Positions 20,816 through 38,202 of a stretch of DNA of 39,464 bases are shown in pieces. This DNA comes from an uncultured Alphaproteobacteria bacterium (GTDB lineage: Bacteria; Pseudomonadota; Alphaproteobacteria; RF32; CAG-239), in contig CALYBB010000023.1 of the NCBI GenBank assembly GCA_944393715.1, positions 1 through 39,464 on the forward strand, in the 5' to 3' direction. The notes below the pieces were generated by a model, which worked only from the letters and a program-made list of their open reading frames with translations, was not told the origin of the DNA and did no database searches. Every line of letters starts with the position of its first letter. Position 1 is the stretch's first letter. A program made the position numbers and the translations under genes.

Positions 20816-20961
20816 GCAGTAACTGTCAAAAATACGCGGCAAAAAATTTATAATTGTTGTTAAAACGACGCAATTAACAATGCTTTTTTATGTTAAGTAG
20901 GACGGTTATTTAAAATATCATAACAAAGCGTATATTGTTTAATATCACTCAAGGAAACAAA

Positions 20962-21861
20962 ATGCTTTGGATTATTAACGGACTGATTTACGGATTTTTT
21001 TCGGCTTTATACACGATGGTTAACCAGCACCGCCGTTTTAACGGTTATGTACTAGGAATTTGGCGCGGTTTCGGCATCTCGCTGTTGTTTTTTCCGTTTT
21101 TATTTTTAGTACCACCGCAAACCGACTGGCACAACTGGACTCTGCTGATTTTGCAGGGAATATTTATCGGAATTTATGATTCACATTTATTTTTTGCCTC
21201 AGCCAGATACGGCGCCGGCACCACATCGCGTTTAATGGTTTTGAGTGTACTGGCAACAACAATCATCTGGTGGATCCTAACACCGCAAAAATTTGTCCGA
21301 CTTTTTGACAACGGCAGCGTATTTATCACCCTGCTTTTGGCATTGTCCGGTTTCAGCATTTGCTACTGGTATATGTTAAAAAGCAAGGTAACTCGACAGG
21401 CATTTGAATACATGTTGCCGGCAGTTTTAGCCTTAGCGGGTATGAGTGCGGCAACCAAAGAAATAGCCCTGATGGGACAAAATATATGGAGCAATATTTT
21501 ATACTATCTGGTTGTGGCAACATTTGTTTCGGGATGTTATAATATGGTGCTGCTATTTTTTCAACAAAAGCCTAAAAAAAATATTCTGCACAAAATATTA
21601 GCGCCCGAAATCAGAAAAACCGGTCTTTACATTATCGGTTTTTCAGCAATCTTAATCGCTGCCAAAACAATGGCAATGCGCCTAGCGCCCAATCCGGGAT
21701 ATGTAGCGGCGCTGTTGCTGACATCACCTCTGTTTGTCTTTGCTTTAAGCCCTCCAAATCGCAGGGAAAGAGGCCTGTCTGCCAAAGCCGGATGGGCAAT
21801 GCTGTTTTTTCTGGCAATGATTATGATTTTGGTTAATGGCAATTTCAATATTGATGACTAA
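20962..21861 (+). CDS. Multi-pass membrane protein, drug/metabolite-transporter (EamA)-like
   Basis: The 299-residue protein has about nine or ten membrane segments in two halves, with short loops and a basic loop near the middle (QQKPKKNILHKI). Size and the two-repeat layout fit the DMT/EamA superfamily, and LVPPQTDWHNW, then GIYDSHLFFASARYGAGTTSR resembles a first-half inter-helix region. Substrate and direction are unknown. The start is ATG 20962 because AAGGA lies 6 nt before it; a TTG 27 bp upstream has no ribosome site. A weak TATATT -10 box at 20931-20936 may drive it. Its stop overlaps the convergent hemW stop by 4 bp. Confidence 0.75.
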   Translation: MLWIINGLIYGFFSALYTMVNQHRRFNGYVLGIWRGFGISLLFFPFLFLVPPQTDWHNWTLLILQGIFIGIYDSHLFFASARYGAGTTSRLMVLSVLATTIIWWILTPQKFVRLFDNGSVFITLLLALSGFSICYWYMLKSKVTRQAFEYMLPAVLALAGMSAATKEIALMGQNIWSNILYYLVVATFVSGCYNMVLLFFQQKPKKNILHKILAPEIRKTGLYIIGFSAILIAAKTMAMRLAPNPGYVAALLLTSPLFVFALSPPNRRERGLSAKAGWAMLFFLAMIMILVNGNFNIDD

Positions 21862-22958
21862 CTGCAAAGTCCCCGTATCAGCCAGTCAAGCAGCAAAAAA
21901 CCCTCCGTCGTTGCGGCAAGATTTTGGGAAGTTTCACACAACAGACCGGCATCGACACTTTGTTTTTTGAATTTTTGATTAACAAAAAAATCAAAATCTA
22001 AGCCACAATTTTGCTTGAAATTCTTTTTGTTAATGCCGGAAACCAATCGCAATCCCATAATGATCAGTTCTTCAGCGCGTTCTTGAGCCGAAAGTTCTTC
22101 AAATTGCAACGGATCGGTCACAGCATAAATTTTGTCGTCCAAATGCAAACGACCATGCGCTGATTCGCCGATACCAATATAATCGCCGCCCTGCCAATAA
22201 ACTTTGTTATGGATGGATTGAAAACCGGTTCTGGCATAATTGGAAACTTCATATTTGCCATAATTGGCATCAGCCAAAAATTGTTCAGTCTGCAAATATA
22301 TTTGTGCCGCTCTTTCTTCATCCAAAGTTTTAATTCCTCTGCGACCAAAAGGGGTGTTTTCTTCAACCGTCAACTGATAAAATGACAAATGCGGAAACCC
22401 GAGAGCACAAATCTTTTTTAGGCGCCGACACCAAATTTCTGGCGTTTGATCAGGAAGAGCATAGATAAAATCGGCAGAAGCATTGCAAAAATAGCGCTTT
22501 ACCTGTTCCATGGACTGATAAGCATCGGCTGCCGAATGCGTACGACCAAGAAATTTTAATTCGTTATCATCAAGAGATTGCACCCCCAAAGATAAGCGAT
22601 TAACACCAGCCGAAGCTAAATCGGCAAACAAAGAAGGTGTTTGGGTATTAGGATTGGCTTCCAAAGATACCTCTGCCTTAGAATCAAGCGCCCATAAGCA
22701 TGATATTTTTTCCAATATGCGCGAAATATTGCGTGGGTTGATAAGCGAAGGTGTACCACCACCGAAAAATATTGAAATAACCTGCCGTCGGGGCAAAATC
22801 TCGGCATAACGCTCCAGCTGTTGCAGATAACCGTCAATAATAACATCCTGATCAAAATTTTTCTTAACACGGCTGAAAAAATCACAATAAGGACATTTGC
22901 TCCGGCAAAAAGGCCAGTGCAAATAAATGCTCAAATTCTGCACATTTCCGTCAATCAT
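21858..22958 (-). CDS. hemW: Heme chaperone HemW (radical SAM)
   Basis: The 366-residue radical SAM protein carries the CxxxCxxC cluster motif at Cys18, Cys22 and Cys25 ([12 protein letters not shown]), the GGGTPS SAM-binding loop, and EANPNT. These mark the HemW group, formerly annotated as oxygen-independent coproporphyrinogen oxidase. True HemN has an extra upstream Cys (CxxxCxxCxC); here the residue after the last Cys-Asp is Phe, which supports HemW. HemW transfers heme to respiratory enzymes. The start overlaps the hslU stop (ATGA), so it is co-translated with hslVU. Confidence 0.93.
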
Positions 22959-24262
22959 AAGATAAATTTCGATAGATCTGAGCTGACGGTATATTTGCTC
23001 AATTTTTCTTCAACCATTTGAGCGGTAATCGTCAGTTCCTGACCGCTTTTATCTGAAGCAGAAAAACTGATATCCTCAAGCAGAATCTCCAAAACTGTGT
23101 GCAAACGTCTGGCACCGATATTCTCAACATTTTCATTAATAGCAACAGCAATATCGGCAATTTTGTCAATGGCATCCGGTGAAAATTTCAAATGAAAATT
23201 CTCAGTACCGAGCAGCGCTATATATTGCTCAATTAAATTTGCCTCAGGCTCGGTTAAAATACGAACAAAATCAGCATGATTCAAAGCTTTTAATTCAACG
23301 CGAATTGGTAGTCTTCCCTGAAGTTCTGGCAGCATATCCGACGGTTTTGACAGATGAAAAGCGCCTGAACAAATAAAAAGAATATGATCCGTTTTAACCA
23401 TGCCATACTTCGTAGAAACAGTCGTCCCTTCAATCAGCGGCAGCAAGTCGCGCTGAACGCCCTCGCGTGAGATGTCGCCTCGGGCACTGTCTGATTTCCC
23501 AGTAATTTTATCAATCTCATCAATAAAAACAATACCATCATTTTCCACAGCCTTAATAGCTTCGGCAATGATCGTCTCATTATCCAGCAGCTTGTCGCTT
23601 TCCTCATCAATCAAAACTTTAAAAGCTTCACTGACCTTAAGTTTTCGAGTTTTGTATTTTTGTGGCGCACCACCGAGCAAATCGCCAAGGCTGATCATCC
23701 CCATCGAAGCGCCGGGCATTCCGGGAATATCTATCGTCGGCATAGATGCGGTTGAATTATCCAACAGAGATATCTCGACCTCGCGCTCATCCAGCTGGTG
23801 CTCTCGCAACAAGTGCAAAAATTTGGTCTTGGTCTCATCGCTTGCCGATGCTCCGACCAAAGCATCAATCAACCGCTTCTCCGAGGCTGCCTCAGCTTTA
23901 GCCGAAACACTTTTGCGTAAGCTTTTGCGTGTTTGCACCAAAGAAATCTCCACCAGATCGCGAATAATGCTTTCGACATCACGCCCAACGTAGCCTATTT
24001 CGGTAAATTTTGTGGCCTCGACCTTAATAAACGGCGCTTTTGCCAATTTGGCCAAACGTCTAGAAATCTCGGTTTTCCCGACTCCTGTAGGACCAATCAT
24101 CAGAATGTTTTTGGGAACGATTTCTTCTTTTAATTTATCAGGAAGCTGCATGCGGCGCCAACGATTACGCAAAGCAACAGCAACGGCTTTCTTGGCCTCA
24201 TTCTGACCAATGATGTATTTATCCAGTTCAGAAACAATTTCTCTCGGGCTGAAATTAGTCAT
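22955..24262 (-). CDS. hslU: HslUV protease ATPase subunit HslU (ClpY)
   Basis: The 435-residue AAA+ unfoldase has the N-terminal [16 protein letters not shown] motif, Walker A GPTGVGKT (57-64), the [14 protein letters not shown] segment with the pore motif GYVG, Walker [11 protein letters not shown], and the C-terminal tail ending KFIL. The tail inserts into HslV to activate it. The intermediate domain (about 110-240) is present. It unfolds substrates and feeds them to HslV in the cytoplasm. The start overlaps hslV by 8 bp and the stop overlaps hemW by 4 bp, so all three form one operon. Confidence 0.97.
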
Positions 24263-24785
24263 TATTGATACTCTCTATAACAACGTTGTGATTGGTGTAA
24301 ACATCAATATCTCCGGCAATTTTCATAGCTCTTCGGGCAATATCTTCAAGAGACAACTCATCAACTTCATAAAGCGCTTTGGCAGCAGCCATAGCATAAT
24401 TTCCGCCGGAACCGATACCAATAATACCATCATCAGGTTCCATAACCTCACCAGTGCCGGAAATGACCAAAGAAGTATCTTTATCAGCCACAATCATAAA
24501 AGCCTGAAGCTGGCGCAAATATTTATCCATACGCCAATCTTTAGCCAACTCAACCGCAGCGCGTTTCAACTGATTGGCATGTTTTTCAAGCTTAGCTTCC
24601 AGCCGCTCAATCAGTGTTATGCCATCTGCGGCAGCACCGGCAAATCCGGCAATAATATTACCGTTGCCAATACGGCGCACTTTAACTGAGTGAGATTTAA
24701 AGATAACAGCCTCCCCTAACGTTGCCTGCCCGTCGCCGGCCATAACAACATGGTCTGCCTTACGAATGCATAAAATCGTGGTCAT
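24255..24785 (-). CDS. hslV: HslUV protease proteolytic subunit HslV
   Basis: The 176-residue proteasome-like peptidase has its catalytic Thr directly after Met (MTTILCIRK), exposed by methionine removal. Other marks are [30 protein letters not shown] (shown in part), the Lys-Arg-Arg of the active site region, and [16 protein letters not shown]. It forms the double-hexamer core capped by HslU. It is the first gene of hslV-hslU-hemW. The ribosome site is GGTAGGG. A promoter resembling the RpoH consensus lies about 40-65 bp upstream, in keeping with heat-shock control of hslVU. Confidence 0.97.
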
Positions 24786-24821: not shown

Positions 24822-24850
24822 ATTTAGGAAAAAATATTGTCTGATGCAAG
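24822..24850 (-). promoter_or_regulatory. Heat-shock (RpoH)-like promoter for hslVU-hemW
   Basis: On the reverse strand CTTG (24850-24847), 18 bp, then CCTAAAT (24828-24822). This differs by one base from the alphaproteobacterial RpoH pattern CTTG-N17/18-CYTATNT. The same bases also give an ordinary TTGCAT-N17-TAAATA sigma-70 reading, so dual recognition is possible. The predicted start is near 24815. Confidence 0.5.
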
Positions 24851-24858
24851 ATCAGACT

Positions 24859-24912: not shown

Positions 24913-26898
24913 TTATTTTTTCTGGAGGCCGCTCATCGGCTTGGGCGACTTATCGGCCTGAGAATTGTCAATAGCATCGGCTATCGGTGTATAGACCTGC
25001 ACAGCCTTTGGCTTATGAACAGCCGACCGTTGACCGCAAAATTCCAAACCTAAACTCTTGAGCGCCGATTCAATCGGGATAAACAAATCCGGCGAATTAT
25101 CTCCCTTTTTGCTTTCATGCGCGATACCGATAACATTACCTTTTTGGTCTATCAGGGCTCCCCCCAAAGTAACGGTTTGCACAAAAGTATCGACAATAAT
25201 TTCGGCACCGCGCCCTTCAGACCACCGATAACCGACGACACGACCTTCATTGTCAATATAGTTTTCGCCGCCTTCATCAAAATTCAGCATTCCGAGAGTT
25301 AACAAAATATCTTTGTTAACCTCAGGCAACGTCAAAGACATAGGCAGCGGCTGATAAGATGTCGGTTGATCAAGCAAAAGCAACGCAACATTTTTTGACG
25401 GATTGACGCGAAAAGCCGATGCCTTAAATTTCTTGCCGTTTACCGTTTCCAGATCATAAACGTTATTCTCTTTCTGAATCAAATCCGCCGAAGTCAGCAC
25501 CAGATTCTCAGCAATGATAAGGCCGGCACCTTTCTTGCCCGAGGCATTTTCAACCGAAACAATCGAGGCACGCAGTTTGTACAAATTTTGCGGATTCAGA
25601 TTCTCAAACGGCGGATTGTTAACAATGCAGAATTCGTTGCTAATTGTCGCAAAAGCCGCTTCATCAATTTCATTAACTTCAATATTGCTGCTGGTAGCTG
25701 CCGCACCACCTTCTTCAATAGCCTGCGACGTTTCTGTTTCCAACGGAATATCAATAAAATAATCATCAGTCAGCGTTATATTTTCACTGTTTTTGACCGT
25801 CGACCCGCCCGCTTCAACCAATTCAAGCGTTTGACAATCATCGGCAATGACGTAGCTTTCATCCGTGACAACATAATTGCTTTCAGCGACATCGCCGTCA
25901 GTCTCGACTTCGACCACGGGAATACACGTCTGGTTTTCACAAACCGGCTGGCAATTTTGCAAAGCAGAAATTGCGCCCAGTTCCTCCGCATATTGGGAAT
26001 TAAAGCAACTCGGACAATTAAACCGATTATTTATTCTGGCCAGCTGTGCCTGAATATCTTCCGGACGAATACGCTGAGCCAAAGTAGAATTAAAACAACT
26101 GATTTCCGGCAATTTAACCAAAGCATCTTCAAAGGCGCGTTCAACCAGCAAAGTCTCACCGTTAGGCTCTCCCTCGGCAATCTGTCCATACCCTGTCGTG
26201 GAGCCTCGACAATAAACTTCATCCTTGGCAATATTCATAACGCGCCAAACGACCGTCATTTCCGAGGTGCCGCTGCGAAGACGTTTGGACTTAGCATCAT
26301 CCCAGTCAAACTCATCACATATATTCATAAAATAATCAGTAATTTCCGCAGTTAACAAATATTCGGCCTGCGGAATTTTATCAGAATCGGCATAATGAAC
26401 ATTTGAAGGATCAACCACAACAGGATAATAATCATTCAAAGTCTCATAAAAGACATCAAAGAAATGCATGTCTTTTTGCATGGCGCGTCCCTGATTAAGA
26501 AAAGCATTTTTAGTCTCTCTGCGGCAGCCGAAAAGACGAAAACGATAATCACCGAGTTTGGTATCAAAACCTTCATAACTGCGGCTTTTACGAATGCGAA
26601 AATCAACATTTTCGAGTTTTATGGGCGCAAAAGAATCACGACTCTGATGCAACATAACATAGGCATCATACTGATCATCAATAATAAGCGTCTGATAACG
26701 AATCTTTTGCTTATCCTGCAGATAAGATATGCGGCGAACGGGACGTTTTTTGGCTGGTTCACACATGCAGTCGAAAATACCCAACGTCGAATCGGCATTA
26801 GGATCACACATGCAGGGTATCAATTCCGGACTTTCTTTATCACAAGCCGCCAAGGCTAAAAGGGGCAACAACAGAGCTAGGCTTAAAGGTTTGCGCAT
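24913..26898 (-). CDS. Large lipoprotein with catalytically dead trypsin-like domain
   Basis: The 661-residue lipoprotein precursor has lipobox LAAC (Cys19). It contains a short Cys-rich segment with two CMC motifs (29-31 and 44-46), a central region (about 65-270) with an AEYLLTAEITDYF / TVVWRVMN pattern like CsgG- or TolB-type envelope proteins, more cysteines (about 295-325), an acidic low-complexity linker (about 330-420), and a C-terminal domain (about 440-620) with the layout of DegP-like proteases. There the His position reads SAD (Asp472), the Asp position NPSKN (Asn503), and the Ser position TLGGAL (Leu578). All three catalytic residues are thus replaced, and a binding role is inferred. 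Ribosome site GGGAG; GTG 26901 is an alternative start. It is probably monocistronic. Confidence 0.82.
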   Translation of the reverse strand: MRKPLSLALLLPLLALAACDKESPELIPCMCDPNADSTLGIFDCMCEPAKKRPVRRISYLQDKQKIRYQTLIIDDQYDAYVMLHQSRDSFAPIKLENVDFRIRKSRSYEGFDTKLGDYRFRLFGCRRETKNAFLNQGRAMQKDMHFFDVFYETLNDYYPVVVDPSNVHYADSDKIPQAEYLLTAEITDYFMNICDEFDWDDAKSKRLRSGTSEMTVVWRVMNIAKDEVYCRGSTTGYGQIAEGEPNGETLLVERAFEDALVKLPEISCFNSTLAQRIRPEDIQAQLARINNRFNCPSCFNSQYAEELGAISALQNCQPVCENQTCIPVVEVETDGDVAESNYVVTDESYVIADDCQTLELVEAGGSTVKNSENITLTDDYFIDIPLETETSQAIEEGGAAATSSNIEVNEIDEAAFATISNEFCIVNNPPFENLNPQNLYKLRASIVSVENASGKKGAGLIIAENLVLTSADLIQKENNVYDLETVNGKKFKASAFRVNPSKNVALLLLDQPTSYQPLPMSLTLPEVNKDILLTLGMLNFDEGGENYIDNEGRVVGYRWSEGRGAEIIVDTFVQTVTLGGALIDQKGNVIGIAHESKKGDNSPDLFIPIESALKSLGLEFCGQRSAVHKPKAVQVYTPIADAIDNSQADKSPKPMSGLQKK

Positions 26899-26920: not shown

Positions 26921-28435
26921 TTAGAAATACTGACTTTGACGATATGACAAAGCCTCAGCTATGTGTAGCTTACGAATTTTTGATTCATTTTGCAAGTCTG
27001 CAATTGTTCTTGCTAACCGTAAAGTGCGATGATAAGCGCGGGCAGATAATTTGTTTTGGTCAGCAAAAGCAACAAGCAGTTTTTCCGCATCATTATCCAT
27101 AACACAAAGATCTTCAAGCAATTTTCCTTTAAGTCTGGCGTTGGTAAAAAAAGATGTCTCGCCGATGGCCCACAGCCTGTCAGCCTGAATTTTGCGGGCC
27201 GCAACAACGCGACTGCGAATTTGCGCAGAAGTTTCACCACGCCTGATACCTGCCAAATCCCAAGGGCTGACGGCAGGGACTTCAATCTTTATATCTATAC
27301 GATCTAACAAAGGACCGGAAATTTTAGCCATATATTCTTTAGCACAAATCGGAGCACGGGCACATTCTTTATCTTTATTGCCGAGCCAGCCGCAGCGGCA
27401 GGGATTCATGGCGGCTATCAACTGGAAATCGGCCGGAAAAGTTGTATGGGCATTGACGCGTGATATTTGCACGACTCCGTTTTCCAAAGGCTGGCGTAAT
27501 GCCTCCAATGTCGGCCGATTAAATTCCGGAAGCTCATCCAGAAACAAAACGCCGTTATGTGCCAAAGAAATCTCCCCTGGCGTCCCCTTACGGCCTCCGC
27601 CGACAAGAGCCGGAGTCGAAGCGCTGTGATGCGGTGCGCGAAAAGATCTGGTCAGACACAACCCGTTGTGTTTGAGTTCTCCGGCGACAGATTGAATCAT
27701 GGACGTTTCCAAAGCTTCGGTAATACTCATCGGCGGCAAAATTGACGGCAAACGGGCTGCTAACATAGATTTACCGGATCCCGGAGGACCTATCATCAAC
27801 ATATTATGACCGCCGGCGGCAGCAATCTCCAAAGCACGCTTGGCTGTTTCCTGCCCCTTAACATCGACCATATCCAACGCCGCATCGTCATCAAATGTGC
27901 GCACAGGCTCGGGAGCCGGTAAAATTTCTGTTTTTTTAAGATGATTAATCAAACAGCCCAAATTAGACGCTGCAGCAATATCTTTAAGCCCAGACCAAGC
28001 CGCTTCGGCGCCACAGGCAAAAGGACAAATAAGTCCCAAACCGTCTTTGGCGACCTGAACAGCAACCGGCAAAACGCCGTTGACGGGCAGAATATTGCCG
28101 TCAAGTCCTAGCTCACCCATTACAATATAATTTTTGAGCGCCGCCGCAGGAACAATCCCCATAACGGCCAAAATTCCTAACGCAATCGGCAAATCAAAAT
28201 GAGAACCTTCCTTAAGTAGATCCGCCGGCGCCAAATTGATAACAATGCGTTTGGGCGGCAACTGAAGACCGAGAGACTGAATGGCTGCCCGAACACGCTC
28301 TTTGCTCTCGGCAATGGCCTTATCGGGCAAACCGACAATAATAAAATTCGGCAAACCGGAAGAAATTTGTGCCTGCAGATCAACCCGTCGAATTTCCAAT
28401 CCGTTAAACGTTAAGGTATTGACATGAGTCAGCAT
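26921..28435 (-). CDS. yifB: YifB/ComM-family Mg-chelatase-like AAA ATPase
   Basis: The 504-residue protein begins MLTHVNTLTFNGLEIRRVDL, the usual YifB start. It has an N-terminal Lon-protease-like fold (about 1-180), Walker A GPPGSGKS (216-223), Walker B LFLDELPEF, an arginine-finger region with PCRCGW and C-terminal SARAYHRTLRLARTIADL. ComM, the characterised member, is a hexameric helicase that aids branch migration in natural transformation. The ATG at 28435 is chosen; an upstream GTG/TTG at 28480 would overlap the preceding gene. It follows the 98-residue secreted protein gene by 11 bp, suggesting co-transcription. Confidence 0.94.
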   Translation of the reverse strand: MLTHVNTLTFNGLEIRRVDLQAQISSGLPNFIIVGLPDKAIAESKERVRAAIQSLGLQLPPKRIVINLAPADLLKEGSHFDLPIALGILAVMGIVPAAALKNYIVMGELGLDGNILPVNGVLPVAVQVAKDGLGLICPFACGAEAAWSGLKDIAAASNLGCLINHLKKTEILPAPEPVRTFDDDAALDMVDVKGQETAKRALEIAAAGGHNMLMIGPPGSGKSMLAARLPSILPPMSITEALETSMIQSVAGELKHNGLCLTRSFRAPHHSASTPALVGGGRKGTPGEISLAHNGVLFLDELPEFNRPTLEALRQPLENGVVQISRVNAHTTFPADFQLIAAMNPCRCGWLGNKDKECARAPICAKEYMAKISGPLLDRIDIKIEVPAVSPWDLAGIRRGETSAQIRSRVVAARKIQADRLWAIGETSFFTNARLKGKLLEDLCVMDNDAEKLLVAFADQNKLSARAYHRTLRLARTIADLQNESKIRKLHIAEALSYRQSQYF

Positions 28436-28446
28436 GAACAAAAGCT

Positions 28447-28743
28447 CTACCAGCGCGGTGTCAATTCGCCGCTGCGCCACCGGCGGGTCGGGTAGGTATC
28501 AACCGCTAAAAAATCGTATTTGGCAGTTTTGGACGGCAAATTACGCATTCGGATATAACCAAGAGTTTCGTAATAAGAAGCGCAGTCCTCCGCTGAGTAT
28601 TGAGAATTGGCATAACAATAGACAACGGTGCGGGTATAAATATTCTGCAAACCAATGCGGCTGTTCTCCGCCGCAAAACAATTATCGACCCCAAAGAAAG
28701 CCAAAGCGGCAAAAGCACAAAAAAGACAAATCAAACGAGGCAT
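28447..28743 (-). CDS. Small secreted protein (98 residues), unknown
   Basis: Not recognised. A Sec signal peptide is clear (about 1-24, core LICLFCAFAALAFFG, cleavage near CFA-AEN). The mature part is about 74 residues with two cysteines (VVYCYANSQY and SAEDCASYY), which could form one disulfide, and it is rich in Tyr and Arg, ending with a basic RRWRSGELTPRW. The start at 28743 is set by AAGGGA 8 nt upstream. A longer TTG start would bury the ribosome site. It precedes yifB by 11 bp on the same strand and is divergent from rpsF. Confidence 0.72.
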   Translation of the reverse strand: MPRLICLFCAFAALAFFGVDNCFAAENSRIGLQNIYTRTVVYCYANSQYSAEDCASYYETLGYIRMRNLPSKTAKYDFLAVDTYPTRRWRSGELTPRW

Positions 28744-28821
28744 TTTTATATCCCTTTGCAAATTTGGTTAGATTTTAGCGGCAAAAGATTAAATCTTCTT
28801 TAAAACGAAGCACAAAAAAGC

Positions 28822-33840: not shown

Positions 33841-36636
33841 ATGAGCAACGATTTTATCGACATCAAAGGCGCACGTGAGCACAACCTCAAAAATATCAGC
33901 GTCAGTATTCCCAAAAACAAACTGACGGTCATCACCGGTCTGTCCGGCTCCGGCAAATCATCGCTTGCTTTTGACACCATCTATGCCGAAGGCCAGCGCC
34001 GTTATGTCGAAAGCCTGTCTTCCTACGCCCGTCAGTTTTTGGATTTGATGAAAAAACCCGACGTCGACTCAATCGAAGGCCTCAGCCCCGCCATCTCCAT
34101 CGAACAAAAAACCACATCGCACAACCCGCGTTCCACCGTCGGCACCATTACCGAAATTTATGATTACATGCGCCTTCTGTGGGCGCGCGTCGGCACCCCC
34201 TACTCGCCGGCCACCGGCCTGCCGATTGAAAGCCAGACCGTATCGCAAATGGTCGATAAAGTTTTGGAAATGCCCGAAAGCTCCAAACTGATGCTTTTGG
34301 CGCCGATTGTCCGCGGTAAAAAGGGTGAATATAAAAAAGAGCTTGAAAGCCTACAAAAACAAGGCTATCAGCGCGTTAAAATCGATGGCAAAATTTATGA
34401 CCTTGAAGACACACCGGAGCTTAACAAAAATCAAAAACACAATATCGAAGTCGTCATTGACCGCATTATTGTCAAAGAAGGCATTGCCGAACGCCTGAGC
34501 CAGTCGTTTGAAACCGCACTTAAACTGAGCGATGGTCTGGTTTTTGTCGAGGACACAACCACTGGCGCACAAACCACTTTTTCTTCCAAATTCGCCTGCC
34601 CAGTATCCGGCTTCACCATCGAGGAAATCGAACCGCGCCTGTTTTCGTTCAACAACCCCTACGGTGCCTGTCCGCACTGCGACGGCATCGGCGCCAAACT
34701 TTACATGGACCCGCTTTTAGTCGTGCCCAACCCCAATTTATCAATTTCGCAGGGAGCCATTGCGCCATGGCATGGTTTCCGCACATCTTTTTACGAACAA
34801 GCGCTTAACTCACTGGCCGATTATCTGGGTATCTCGGTCAAAACACCGTGGAAAGACCTGCCGCAAAAAGCCCGCGACGTTATTCTCTACGGCTCCGGCG
34901 ACGAGCCCGTGCCGCTTTACTTCTCGCGTTTTGCCACACATAAGCCTTTTGAGGGCGTTATTCCGAACATGGAGCGCCGTTTTTTAGAAACCGATTCGCC
35001 GGCCACGCGTGAGGAGCTGTCGCGTTATCAGTCCGCAGCGCCCTGTGAATTTTGCAGCGGCAAACGCCTCAAACCGGAAGCTCTGGCGGTCAAAATCGGC
35101 GGATTAGACATTATGGATGCCTCCAATATGTCGGTCAAAGACGCTTTGGTTTGGTTTAACGGCATCAAGCCCAACCTGACGCCCAAAAAGCAGGAAATCG
35201 CCGCCAAAATCATCAAAGAAATTTGCGAGCGTTTAAGCTTTTTAAACAACGTCGGGCTGGATTACCTGACGCTCTCGCGCCAATCCGGTTCGCTTTCCGG
35301 CGGCGAGGCGCAGCGCATCCGTCTGGCCAGCCAGATAGGCACCGGCTTAACCGGCGTTCTCTATGTTTTGGACGAACCGTCCATCGGCCTGCACCAGCGC
35401 GACAACAACCGTTTGATTGAAACCCTAGAGCGTCTGCGCAATATCGGCAACAGCGTAATTGTCGTCGAACATGATGAAGACGCCATTCGCGCCGCCGACT
35501 TCTTAATCGATATCGGCCCCCGCGCCGGTGCCGACGGCGGCCGGATTATGGCCAGCGGCACGGTCAAAGACGTCTTGAAATCCGACAGCCTCACCGCGCA
35601 ATACCTAAACGGCATCAAAAAAATCGCCGTGCCGCAAAAACGCCGCGAAGGCAACGGCAAATTTGTCGGCCTCAAGGGCGTGCGCACCAACAACCTTAAA
35701 AATATCGACGTCAAAATTCCGCTCGGTCTGTTTACCTGCGTCACCGGTGTCTCCGGCGGCGGCAAATCGTCTCTGATTCTGGAAACCCTGTGCAAAGCGC
35801 TGGAAAAAGAAATCAACGGCTCGCGCGAACCGGCCGGCATTTATGACAAACTGACCGGTGCCGAAAACATTGATAAAATCATCAACATCGACCAATCACC
35901 GATCGGCCGCACCCCGCGTTCCAACCCTGCTACCTACACCGGCGTTTTTACCAACATTCGCGACTGGTTTGCCGGCCTGCCTGAATCCAAAGCCCGCGGC
36001 TACACCGCCAGCCGTTTTTCTTTCAACGTTGCCGGCGGCCGCTGCGAGGCCTGCAAAGGCGACGGCGTCACCAAAATCGAAATGCATTTTCTGCCCGATG
36101 TTTATGTTGAATGCGATGTTTGCAAAGGCAAACGTTTCAACCGTGAAACACTGGAAGTCAAATACAAGGATAAATCCATCGCCGATGTTTTGGATATGAC
36201 GGTTGATGAAGCCTATGCCTTTTTTGAAAATATTCCCTCGATTAAAAACCGTCTGGATCTGCTGCGCCGCGTCGGTCTTGGCTATATCAAACTCGGCCAG
36301 CCGGCCACCACGCTTTCCGGCGGTGAAGCACAGCGTATTAAGCTTTCCAAACGCGCCACCGGCAAAACGCTTTATATCCTGGACGAACCGACCACCGGCC
36401 TACATTTTGAGGATATCAACAAACTGCTTTCCATCCTGCAGTCCTTGGTTGACCAGGGCAATTCATTGATTGTCATTGAGCATAATCTGGATGTGATAAA
36501 AACCGCCGACTACATCATCGACATCGGCCCCGAGGGCGGCGACGGCGGCGGCCGCATCATCGCCGAAGGCACGCCGGAACAGGTGGCTCAATCCGACATC
36601 AGCTACACCGCCAAGTTTTTGCGTGAAAAATTATAA
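33841..36636 (+). CDS. uvrA: Excinuclease ABC subunit A
   Basis: The 931-residue UvrA is close to the usual 940. It is the DNA-damage sensor of nucleotide excision repair. Two ABC cassettes are visible: Walker [15 protein letters not shown] near residue 32 and [10 protein letters not shown] in the second half; signatures LSGGEAQRI occur in both halves, with [13 protein letters not shown] and [13 protein letters not shown]. Zinc-finger CxxC pairs are [13 protein letters not shown] and the pair CEACKGDG / CDVCKGKRF. The ATG at 33841 has GGGAGGA; an ORF extension to 33703 is rejected because the promoter lies inside it. Base composition is noticeably more GC-rich than the flanking genes. Confidence 0.98.
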
Positions 36637-38202
36637 GGAGCGCCCCTTATCAATGACAAACCGATTTTGCTTGGCTGCACAAACCATAGAGATTCTGAGT
36701 CCCATTTCCTGAAGAAACTCAGACCCCTTGCTTTCTCGAATCAACACATCGGCCAAAGCTTTTGTATCTTTCGGCGCGTAATTATAATTAACTGCCAATT
36801 CAGTAAACAATTCGCACATTCCGCCGCCCAACGAATAATTCAAATTACTGAAATCATCATTGCTGTCATTAATTGAAACGGCATATTTTCTGGCAATATC
36901 CAAAACAAGATTTTTATCAACAGCCTTAATTTTTTTCTCTTTGCTGAACAACGTCGCCGGAATAGTATCCAATCGCCGCGCCGCCGCATTTTTTTGCAGA
37001 AGAACCATCAATTTGTCGGTTTTAACCGTTTCATCCCTAAAAAACGCTGCGTAATCAAACAGATATGAAGCATAGTCCAAAACCATCTTTTCATCTGGTT
37101 CAAAACCAGATGCCCAAATATCAACATTTTTAAGCGGATCTTCCCGACCCAAATACTGTAAAATTTGCCTTTCTCTGACCTCATTAAAACAAGCCTCAAT
37201 ACCATCAGCCACTTTTTGCAGACCAATTAGCTTTTGGTTCTTGCGAATTTTACGTCCATTCCCTCCCCCAATATCCGGCGGCCGCACCGCAGCAATCCAG
37301 TCATCGACATCATTTTTACCACAAGGATAGTTTTGCAAAACTTTTTGAGCCAGCAACATCATCCGAACCCCAAGATACGGGTTAAATTTATCTTCTTCCA
37401 TAACATGCGTTTTATAAGCTGCAAAAATATCCCGCAACACCTTCGTATCAGCAAACTCCTCATCCCATTGCTCTTTATCGGCCAAAGCCTGTGGCGTTTT
37501 GGTAACCATATTCAAAAGCGGAATATGAATCTGCCTCTCTGGTTGCTGTTGTAATTGGGCATCAGGTAACCTTTCAATAATCTCAAAATAAATCCGACTA
37601 AAATTAACAGCGTCTTCAGCCAATATTTCCGATAAATTGCCGGCAAAACTTTTAAACATACCCAAAGCCAAACGCGCAAAAGCATCATTCTTGCGTTTCT
37701 TTTGCCTAAAATAACGCATCGTCTTGATATAAAGACGGTTACAAGCCTGCGGATTATCCTTCGGATTAAAAACCGCAAGTTTATACAAAACCACAGGATC
37801 AAATTCTTTATATTTGCCACAGGCAAAAATATATTCCAAAAATTTTATTTTATTGCTATCCGACAAAGGATGCTCGGCCACAGACATTGAAACCAGCCTG
37901 ACAGCATGTTTGGCAAACGGTTGTCCGAAATAATCCTTATATTTCCACAACAAATGCCCGTTAACCTGTTTGCGATCGTCGTCTTCAAATGATAGCAAAT
38001 ACCTGTTTATGTCATTCATCATCAGCCGTTCTCTGTCATCATCGTACGGATAAGGAACATTGTCTTTGAATTGGTATTTATTACCCAATTGTGCTCGCAC
38101 ATAATTGCTCCGGCTGACGACCCATTCTTTTGTCCCGCGGGCATACTCATCCAACTTGTTTTCAATTGCCTGACAACGGGGATCATTTTTAAGGTCTAAC
38201 AT
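36631..38202 (-). CDS. Hypothetical protein, 523 residues, no recognised domain
   Basis: Not recognised. The protein is cytoplasmic by appearance: no signal peptide or membrane helix. It is highly charged and predicted mostly helical throughout, with scattered short helices and several aromatic-rich stretches (for example [22 protein letters not shown]). A Gly-rich loop [15 protein letters not shown] lies near 310-325 but does not match a P-loop. It could be a helical-repeat or effector-like protein. A good promoter (TTGCTT / TATTAT) lies about 40-65 bp upstream, ATG 38202 has a weak GGCGAG ribosome site, and its 3' end overlaps uvrA by 6 bp. The long intact frame supports a real gene. Confidence 0.8.

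Follow-up and report, generated by a model that had tools for sequence, protein, structure and literature searches.

A trypsin/HtrA-fold domain with all three catalytic positions replaced, retained across an order of Alphaproteobacteria

Pseudoproteases of the S1 fold are already known, with MamO and RsgI9 being the nearest cases of a degenerate HtrA-fold active site. MamO, from magnetotactic Alphaproteobacteria, has the HtrA/Trypsin_2 fold and a non-catalytic role; its His116 and Asp149 are kept, Thr225 is the predicted nucleophile, and metal is bound via two histidines. Its inactivation was explained by the redundancy of duplicated proteases, and losses of this kind occurred independently in different groups (PMC4794232). 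The S1C domain of Clostridium thermocellum RsgI9 (PDB 7sjy) is an exported HtrA-like domain with a degenerate site in which, by alignment, His and Asp are kept and Thr replaces Ser; it forms part of an anti-sigma factor and lies beside an NTF2 domain. By contrast, the native sequence of MarP/Rv3671c (3k6y, 3k6z), a serine protease according to its PDB listing, has an intact His-Asp-Ser triad.

The protein described here is encoded in a 39,464-nucleotide stretch of DNA (the window; contig CALYBB010000023.1 of assembly GCA_944393715.1) from an uncultured alphaproteobacterium of GTDB lineage RF32; CAG-239. It shares its C-terminal fold with all of these proteins. Unlike MamO and RsgI9, it has all three catalytic positions replaced, and it is the ortholog itself that was inactivated; its N-domain and linker also differ from those of MamO. 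Searches of the open-access literature turned up no paper on this family. The gene is a minus-strand ORF (26898..24913), with an ATG at 26898 and a stop at 24915-24913, and specifies 661 residues. The features considered below are as follows.

24913..26898, minus strand: predicted envelope pseudoprotease, whole gene, 661 aa plus stop (ORF)
26842..26898, minus strand: predicted signal peptide with lipobox LAAC, Cys19 (residues 1-19; sequence, predicted helix 5-20)
26674..26841, minus strand: Cys-rich segment of low model confidence (residues 20-75, PCMCD...FDCMCEP; AlphaFold model, ortholog comparison)
26050..26661, minus strand: N-terminal alpha/beta domain (residues 80-283), without a Pfam or NCBIfam family (model, family searches)
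25606..26049, minus strand: acidic linker (residues 284-431; composition, low pLDDT)
25036..25605, minus strand: trypsin/HtrA-fold pseudoprotease domain (residues 432-621; Pfam, predicted structure)
25483..25485, minus strand: Asp472, at the catalytic His position (alignments)
25390..25392, minus strand: Asn503, at the catalytic Asp position (alignments)
25165..25167, minus strand: Leu578, at the catalytic Ser position (alignments)
25171..25173, minus strand: Val576, replacing the oxyanion-hole Gly (alignment; Gly in 25/25 active orthologs)
25627..25629, minus strand: Cys424, candidate for a disulfide with Cys621 across the domain ends (alignment)
25036..25038, minus strand: Cys621, candidate partner of Cys424 (alignment)
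25117..25119, minus strand: His594, sole conserved His of the domain (49/55), off the catalytic position (alignment of the order)
24839..24857, minus strand: terminator-like hairpin and T run between the pseudoprotease gene and hslV (sequence pattern)
26921..28480, minus strand: comM/yifB-like gene, 22 bp upstream of the pseudoprotease gene (conserved neighbour within the order)
24255..24785, minus strand: hslV, downstream of the pseudoprotease gene (likewise follows active orthologs elsewhere in the Alphaproteobacteria)
22955..24262, minus strand: hslU (neighbourhood comparison)

Two other ORFs of the window, at 36631-38202 (minus strand; 523 aa) and 20935-21861 (plus strand; 308 aa), gave no Pfam match at E 0.001.

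Fold and former catalytic site

The whole Pfam Trypsin_2 model (PF13365) aligned to residues 457-592, scoring 42.6 bits (cutoff 27.6; E=1.4e-10), and the motifs GAGLII, VLTSADLI, VALLLLD and GGALIDQKGNVIGI were all found in the ORF. In the AlphaFold2 model, built with 64 homologs, residues 160-290 and 440-530 had block-mean pLDDT values that were mostly about 90 or above; elsewhere in the protease domain most values exceeded 80, two loops being weaker, and the linker between the domains was of low confidence. In a Foldseek search with this model, the top match was the S1C domain of RsgI9 (E 7e-11), followed by MarP, also the best PDB sequence match of the protein (E 0.004-0.006), and then DegP/DegQ/DegS. 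Alignment to DegP with VIA-align gave a Z of 21.9 and an rmsd of 2.5 over 181 residues, while an active ortholog (L051) was predicted to adopt the same fold, with a Z of 25 to DegP. The Pfam match and the predicted model thus assign the domain to the double beta-barrel, chymotrypsin-like Trypsin_2/HtrA (S1C) fold, in agreement with a sequence-only reading that had proposed such a fold from the motifs.

That reading had further claimed that the His, Asp and Ser positions are occupied by Asp472, Asn503 and Leu578. In the phmmer alignment with MarP, TNAHVV is matched by TSADLI (Asp472 on the His), PSVDVAIL by PSKNVALL (Asn503 on the Asp) and GDSGG by VTLGG (Leu578 on the Ser), so that both the coordinates and the residues named were correct. 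When the protein was aligned with active homologs by MAFFT, a one-column slip occurred at the His loop, because most active sequences have one extra loop residue there; in either register, the catalytic His is absent from the His loop of the window protein. The Gly that precedes the Ser in the oxyanion hole (GNSGG) is replaced by Val576. Despite a Z of about 22 to the protease domain of the DegP/DegQ/HtrA group, the protein thus lacks the triad and the oxyanion Gly of those enzymes. It also lacks their PDZ, since a Pfam scan gave no C-terminal PDZ match and the protease domain is followed by no more than about 40 residues, and it bears an unrelated N-domain and linker. Loss of the whole triad extends beyond the window, with none of 55 aligned sequences from the order (0/55) containing the His-Asp-Ser triad of an HtrA serine endopeptidase.

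A triad at shifted positions was rejected: neither register places a His within the His loop or close to it, and His594, the conserved one, comes after the Ser loop. Likewise, an assembly or frame error was rejected, given that the same substitutions are seen in dozens of independent genomes. With the fold kept, the catalytic residues lost and an ancestry among active enzymes (see below), the domain can be classed as an S1-fold pseudoprotease, and the substitutions argue strongly that it is catalytically dead. It is highly improbable that the domain still performs chemistry via a rearranged active site. Conserved polar residues do lie close to the old site in the sequence (D472, N503, S470, T577 and H594), but they offer no conserved nucleophile-base pair of known geometry, the oxyanion Gly has become Val in most sequences and the Ser position holds Leu, Ile, Val or Thr. 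Scarcely better placed is a metal-binding function of the kind into which the fold was turned in MamO (PMC4794232). The many Cys of the N-terminal segment and linker, together with the one conserved His594, could be cited in its favour; still, most order sequences have one or two His in the domain, only one of them conserved, and the pair of surface His that makes up the MamO-like di-His site is absent from most.

Distribution and selection within the order

The order was surveyed in 153 genomes using a sister-family protein (L054) as query and a threshold of E 0.001. Homologs were detected in 144 of the 153, a count that includes a few single weak matches, such as that in genome G008, which are not this gene; they were present in 106 of 109 good-quality genomes and in 16 of 17 genera. 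G008, which belongs to the same genus as the window genome and is rated 100% complete, has no detectable copy, and the gene is therefore dispensable in at least one lineage. No plasmid-borne copies were found.

Among the 55 aligned order sequences, the His, Asp and Ser positions read D/N/L in 34, D/N/I in nine, D/N/V in four, and N/N/I and D/N/T in two each, while R/D/L, S/N/V, S/N/I and E/N/I were each encountered once. Asn occupies the catalytic Asp position in 54/55; the only retained Asp is that of L054, the most divergent member of the order, where it stands opposite an Arg at the His position, such that Arg and Asp would keep a charge pair. Within the genus, the D/N/L residues are present in 28/28, 28/28 and 26/28 sequences, respectively, and the conservation of these replacements, put forward as a check on the sequence-only reading, thus holds across the genus and largely so across the order. 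The oxyanion Gly is replaced within the genus by Val in 27/28 and otherwise by Ala; across the order, this position is Val in 41/55, as compared with Gly in all 25 active orthologs. Q574, R497, N499 and S470 are invariant in the 55 sequences.

Pairwise dN/dS values in the pseudoprotease domain were about 0.01-0.05 and similar in magnitude to those of the N-domain, with several pairs being saturated or nearly so at synonymous sites and those with dS under 1 giving 0.007-0.045. These values, the open frames of the aligned orthologs and the presence of the gene in 144/153 genomes reveal purifying selection, as had been surmised for the domain after loss of its triad. A decaying pseudogene was rejected on the basis of dN/dS and conservation. 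Mean column entropy, calculated over 18 genus representatives, was 0.60 bits in the His loop and 0.74 bits in the Asp loop, against 1.34 bits in the rest of the domain; the Ser loop, at 1.20 bits, was close to the latter.

These figures bear on the main rival to a binding role, namely that the dead domain is a structural part or spacer, with the N-domain of an envelope lipoprotein doing the work and the former cleft being ligand-free. Such a role would suit an N-domain whose conservation equals or exceeds that of the protease domain (dN/dS similar or lower in most pairs) and a linker that varies from 57 to 662 aa in the order, as opposed to 11-40 aa in active orthologs, so that precise geometry would not be needed; the change of a buried Asp to Asn and of Ser to mostly hydrophobic residues is also what is expected of a site packed shut. 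Yet the former His and Asp loops exceed the rest of the domain in conservation, and a pure spacer should have drifted more at the four invariant residues, although core packing alone may account for the conserved loops. On balance, a purely structural role is considered unlikely.

Architecture, neighbourhood and active orthologs

To trace ancestry, a draw of 385 alphaproteobacterial genomes was searched with an active ortholog as query. The top matches were full-length two-domain proteins of 430-570 aa. In the 25 active orthologs used, the Asp and Ser are intact in 25/25 and the His lies in a TNxH motif, read as TADH in L133. The active two-domain proteins (L050-L053, L110-L133) and those of the order have a common N-domain, with the near-invariant Cys pair C125/C194, and the same domain order, the active forms being distinguished by their intact triad and short linker. 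Homologs with an intact triad, raised earlier as grounds for doubting the loss if their residues lay at shifted positions, do exist; their triads occupy the same positions, in other lineages, and represent the active ancestral form. hslV is found downstream on the same strand in 9/25 of the active-ortholog genomes, in seven at about 130-250 bp, and the window gene ends 127 bp before hslV. The common architecture and neighbourhood argue for orthology of the active and dead forms.

In a tree from which the triad columns had been excluded, the order formed one branch (100 SH-aLRT), for which one state change is enough; the root was not fixed by an outgroup, with the active-to-inactive direction resting on the triad as the fold's ancestral state. 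The active envelope protease thus appears to have become a pseudoprotease once, in the ancestor of the order. Degraded copies were also found in three genomes of f91, a family with small genomes (1.1-1.5 Mb; 97-98% complete), where the sites, with the register read by the LTxxx motif, are K/N/A in L134 (G351), S/D/S in L135 (G241) and I/D/S in L138 (G442). As these sequences are nested among active ones in the tree, the gene was apparently inactivated at least twice, in the window order and, independently, in f91.

The window genome (G000) also contains one copy of a canonical HtrA with the triad intact (TNNHV, TDLALL, GSSGG) and with a long C-terminal region, PDZ-like by eye; each of seven order genomes checked for Trypsin_2 genes yielded one strong match like this protein. 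The pseudoprotease could act on the single active HtrA as a regulatory partner, for instance by joining mixed oligomers as a subunit or as an adaptor that delivers substrate, with iRhom pseudoproteases (PMC12516561) offering a precedent for control of an active enzyme. This is rather doubtful, however, since the pseudoprotease lacks a PDZ and the active proteins most closely related to it make up a two-domain family of their own; in addition, the three f91 genomes with a degraded copy showed no further Trypsin_2 gene, and canonical HtrA appears absent from them, so that a partner HtrA is not required there.

Upstream, comM, on the same strand, is the constant neighbour of the gene in the order. 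With comM 22 bp upstream and a hairpin after the gene, comM and the pseudoprotease gene may form a transcription unit apart from hslVU, the number of terminator-like sites in the region being at chance level; heat-shock promoter patterns were likewise at chance level only. Dependence on HslVU was rejected, as five nearly complete order genomes with no detectable hslV (G036, G038, G039, G046 and G052) keep the pseudoprotease gene, in most with comM as neighbour. G008, without the pseudoprotease gene, is also without hslU, its best hslU match being ClpX-like by sequence. In G024 (G024:C2:291923-292444), an hslV match of 93% identity is interrupted by one TAA. A small putative exported protein (window 28447-28761, minus strand; 104 aa, counted from a TTG start codon), which matched no Pfam family, is kept upstream of comM across the order, and a stretch 37% identical to it adjoins an active ortholog in L052/L166.

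The N-domain gave no significant match in Pfam, NCBIfam and PDB profile searches, with comparison to CsgG and ABC_trans_aux/PqiC providing weak hints (member E-values 0.19; hhalign probability 10% and 32%). The earlier suggestion that the N-terminal half is an envelope-assembly lipoprotein accordingly found no significant match among known families of that type. The lipoprotein assignment itself stands for the window protein, which has the lipobox LAAC19; in many orthologs from other genera of the same family, no lipobox was found. Nothing supports the outer-membrane placement that had been proposed, and several orthologs lack a recognisable lipobox. In the window protein, an Asp directly follows the lipobox Cys. 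In E. coli, Asp at this position can mean inner-membrane retention, with the next residue deciding, a rule not established for the window's group.

Where the window protein has its Cys-rich segment, many other genera have repeats of the form KDGSxFPGGxCxxC before the N-domain. Proteins L055-L058, L063-L069, L071 and L081 present DKDGS(L/I)FPGGxCxxC and GPLFDTGPCxxC repeats between signal peptide and N-domain. Of the 13 sites detected in a search of eleven genomes for DKDGSLFPGGxCxxC, 12 lie at the locus of this gene. Within the searched genomes, the repeats are almost confined to the gene; in G036, a second DGSLFPGG site lies off the main locus (G036:C40:13243-13265; L256). In L045, L046, L048 and L066, linker or N-terminal expansions extend the open frame to 940-1179 aa. 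Besides losing its triad, the dead form in this order acquired a much longer linker than that of active orthologs and a flanking Cys pair. The linker of the window protein is acidic, with 27 acidic and 3 basic residues in 284-427. Cys424 and Cys621 flank the dead domain in 17/18 genus representatives and are both absent from L054 and from the three active orthologs listed; a disulfide across the domain ends is thus possible.

A probable non-catalytic role for the retained domain

Strong constraint, order-wide retention and the conservation of some of the former active-site loops all point towards binding, and a non-cutting client-binding or regulatory role fits best. Indeed, the binding or sensing role put forward from the sequence is a reasonable interpretation, and a client could possibly be sensed at the outer membrane. 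The preferred reading, to which a probability of roughly 0.6 is assigned, is that of an exported two-domain envelope protein whose dead HtrA-type C-terminal domain is kept for non-catalytic binding. In this scheme, an active two-domain ancestor, of the type still found in other Alphaproteobacteria, often beside hslVU, lost its triad, and the domain would then have been retained for binding. The N-domain and membrane anchor would hold the pseudoprotease in the envelope, the long acidic linker would give the domain reach, and Cys424-Cys621 might staple it. Unfolded or specific proteins would be bound in the former substrate cleft and then held or handed to the single canonical HtrA, or else the latter would itself be regulated.

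In a more specific form, held tentatively and at somewhat short of even odds, the order's single-copy, hslVU-linked envelope protease ortholog, with no active paralog retained, would have been turned into a pseudoprotease devoted to client binding or sensing, its pseudo-active site bearing a conserved Asp-Asn pair, f91 having likewise done so independently. If true, an enzyme of quality control was converted more than once into a non-catalytic factor of the envelope, in a change that defines the order.

These findings name an uncharacterised two-domain envelope protease family of Alphaproteobacteria, in which one gene specifies an intact protease in certain lineages and has been inactivated in two separate ones, with the neighbourhood partly preserved. 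This amounts to an order-wide natural experiment that lets one ask what uses a non-cutting protease domain has. Annotation of such genes as 'serine protease' would be wrong throughout one order. A gut-dwelling alphaproteobacterial order retains a dead protease nearly everywhere, most likely as a protein that binds rather than cuts.
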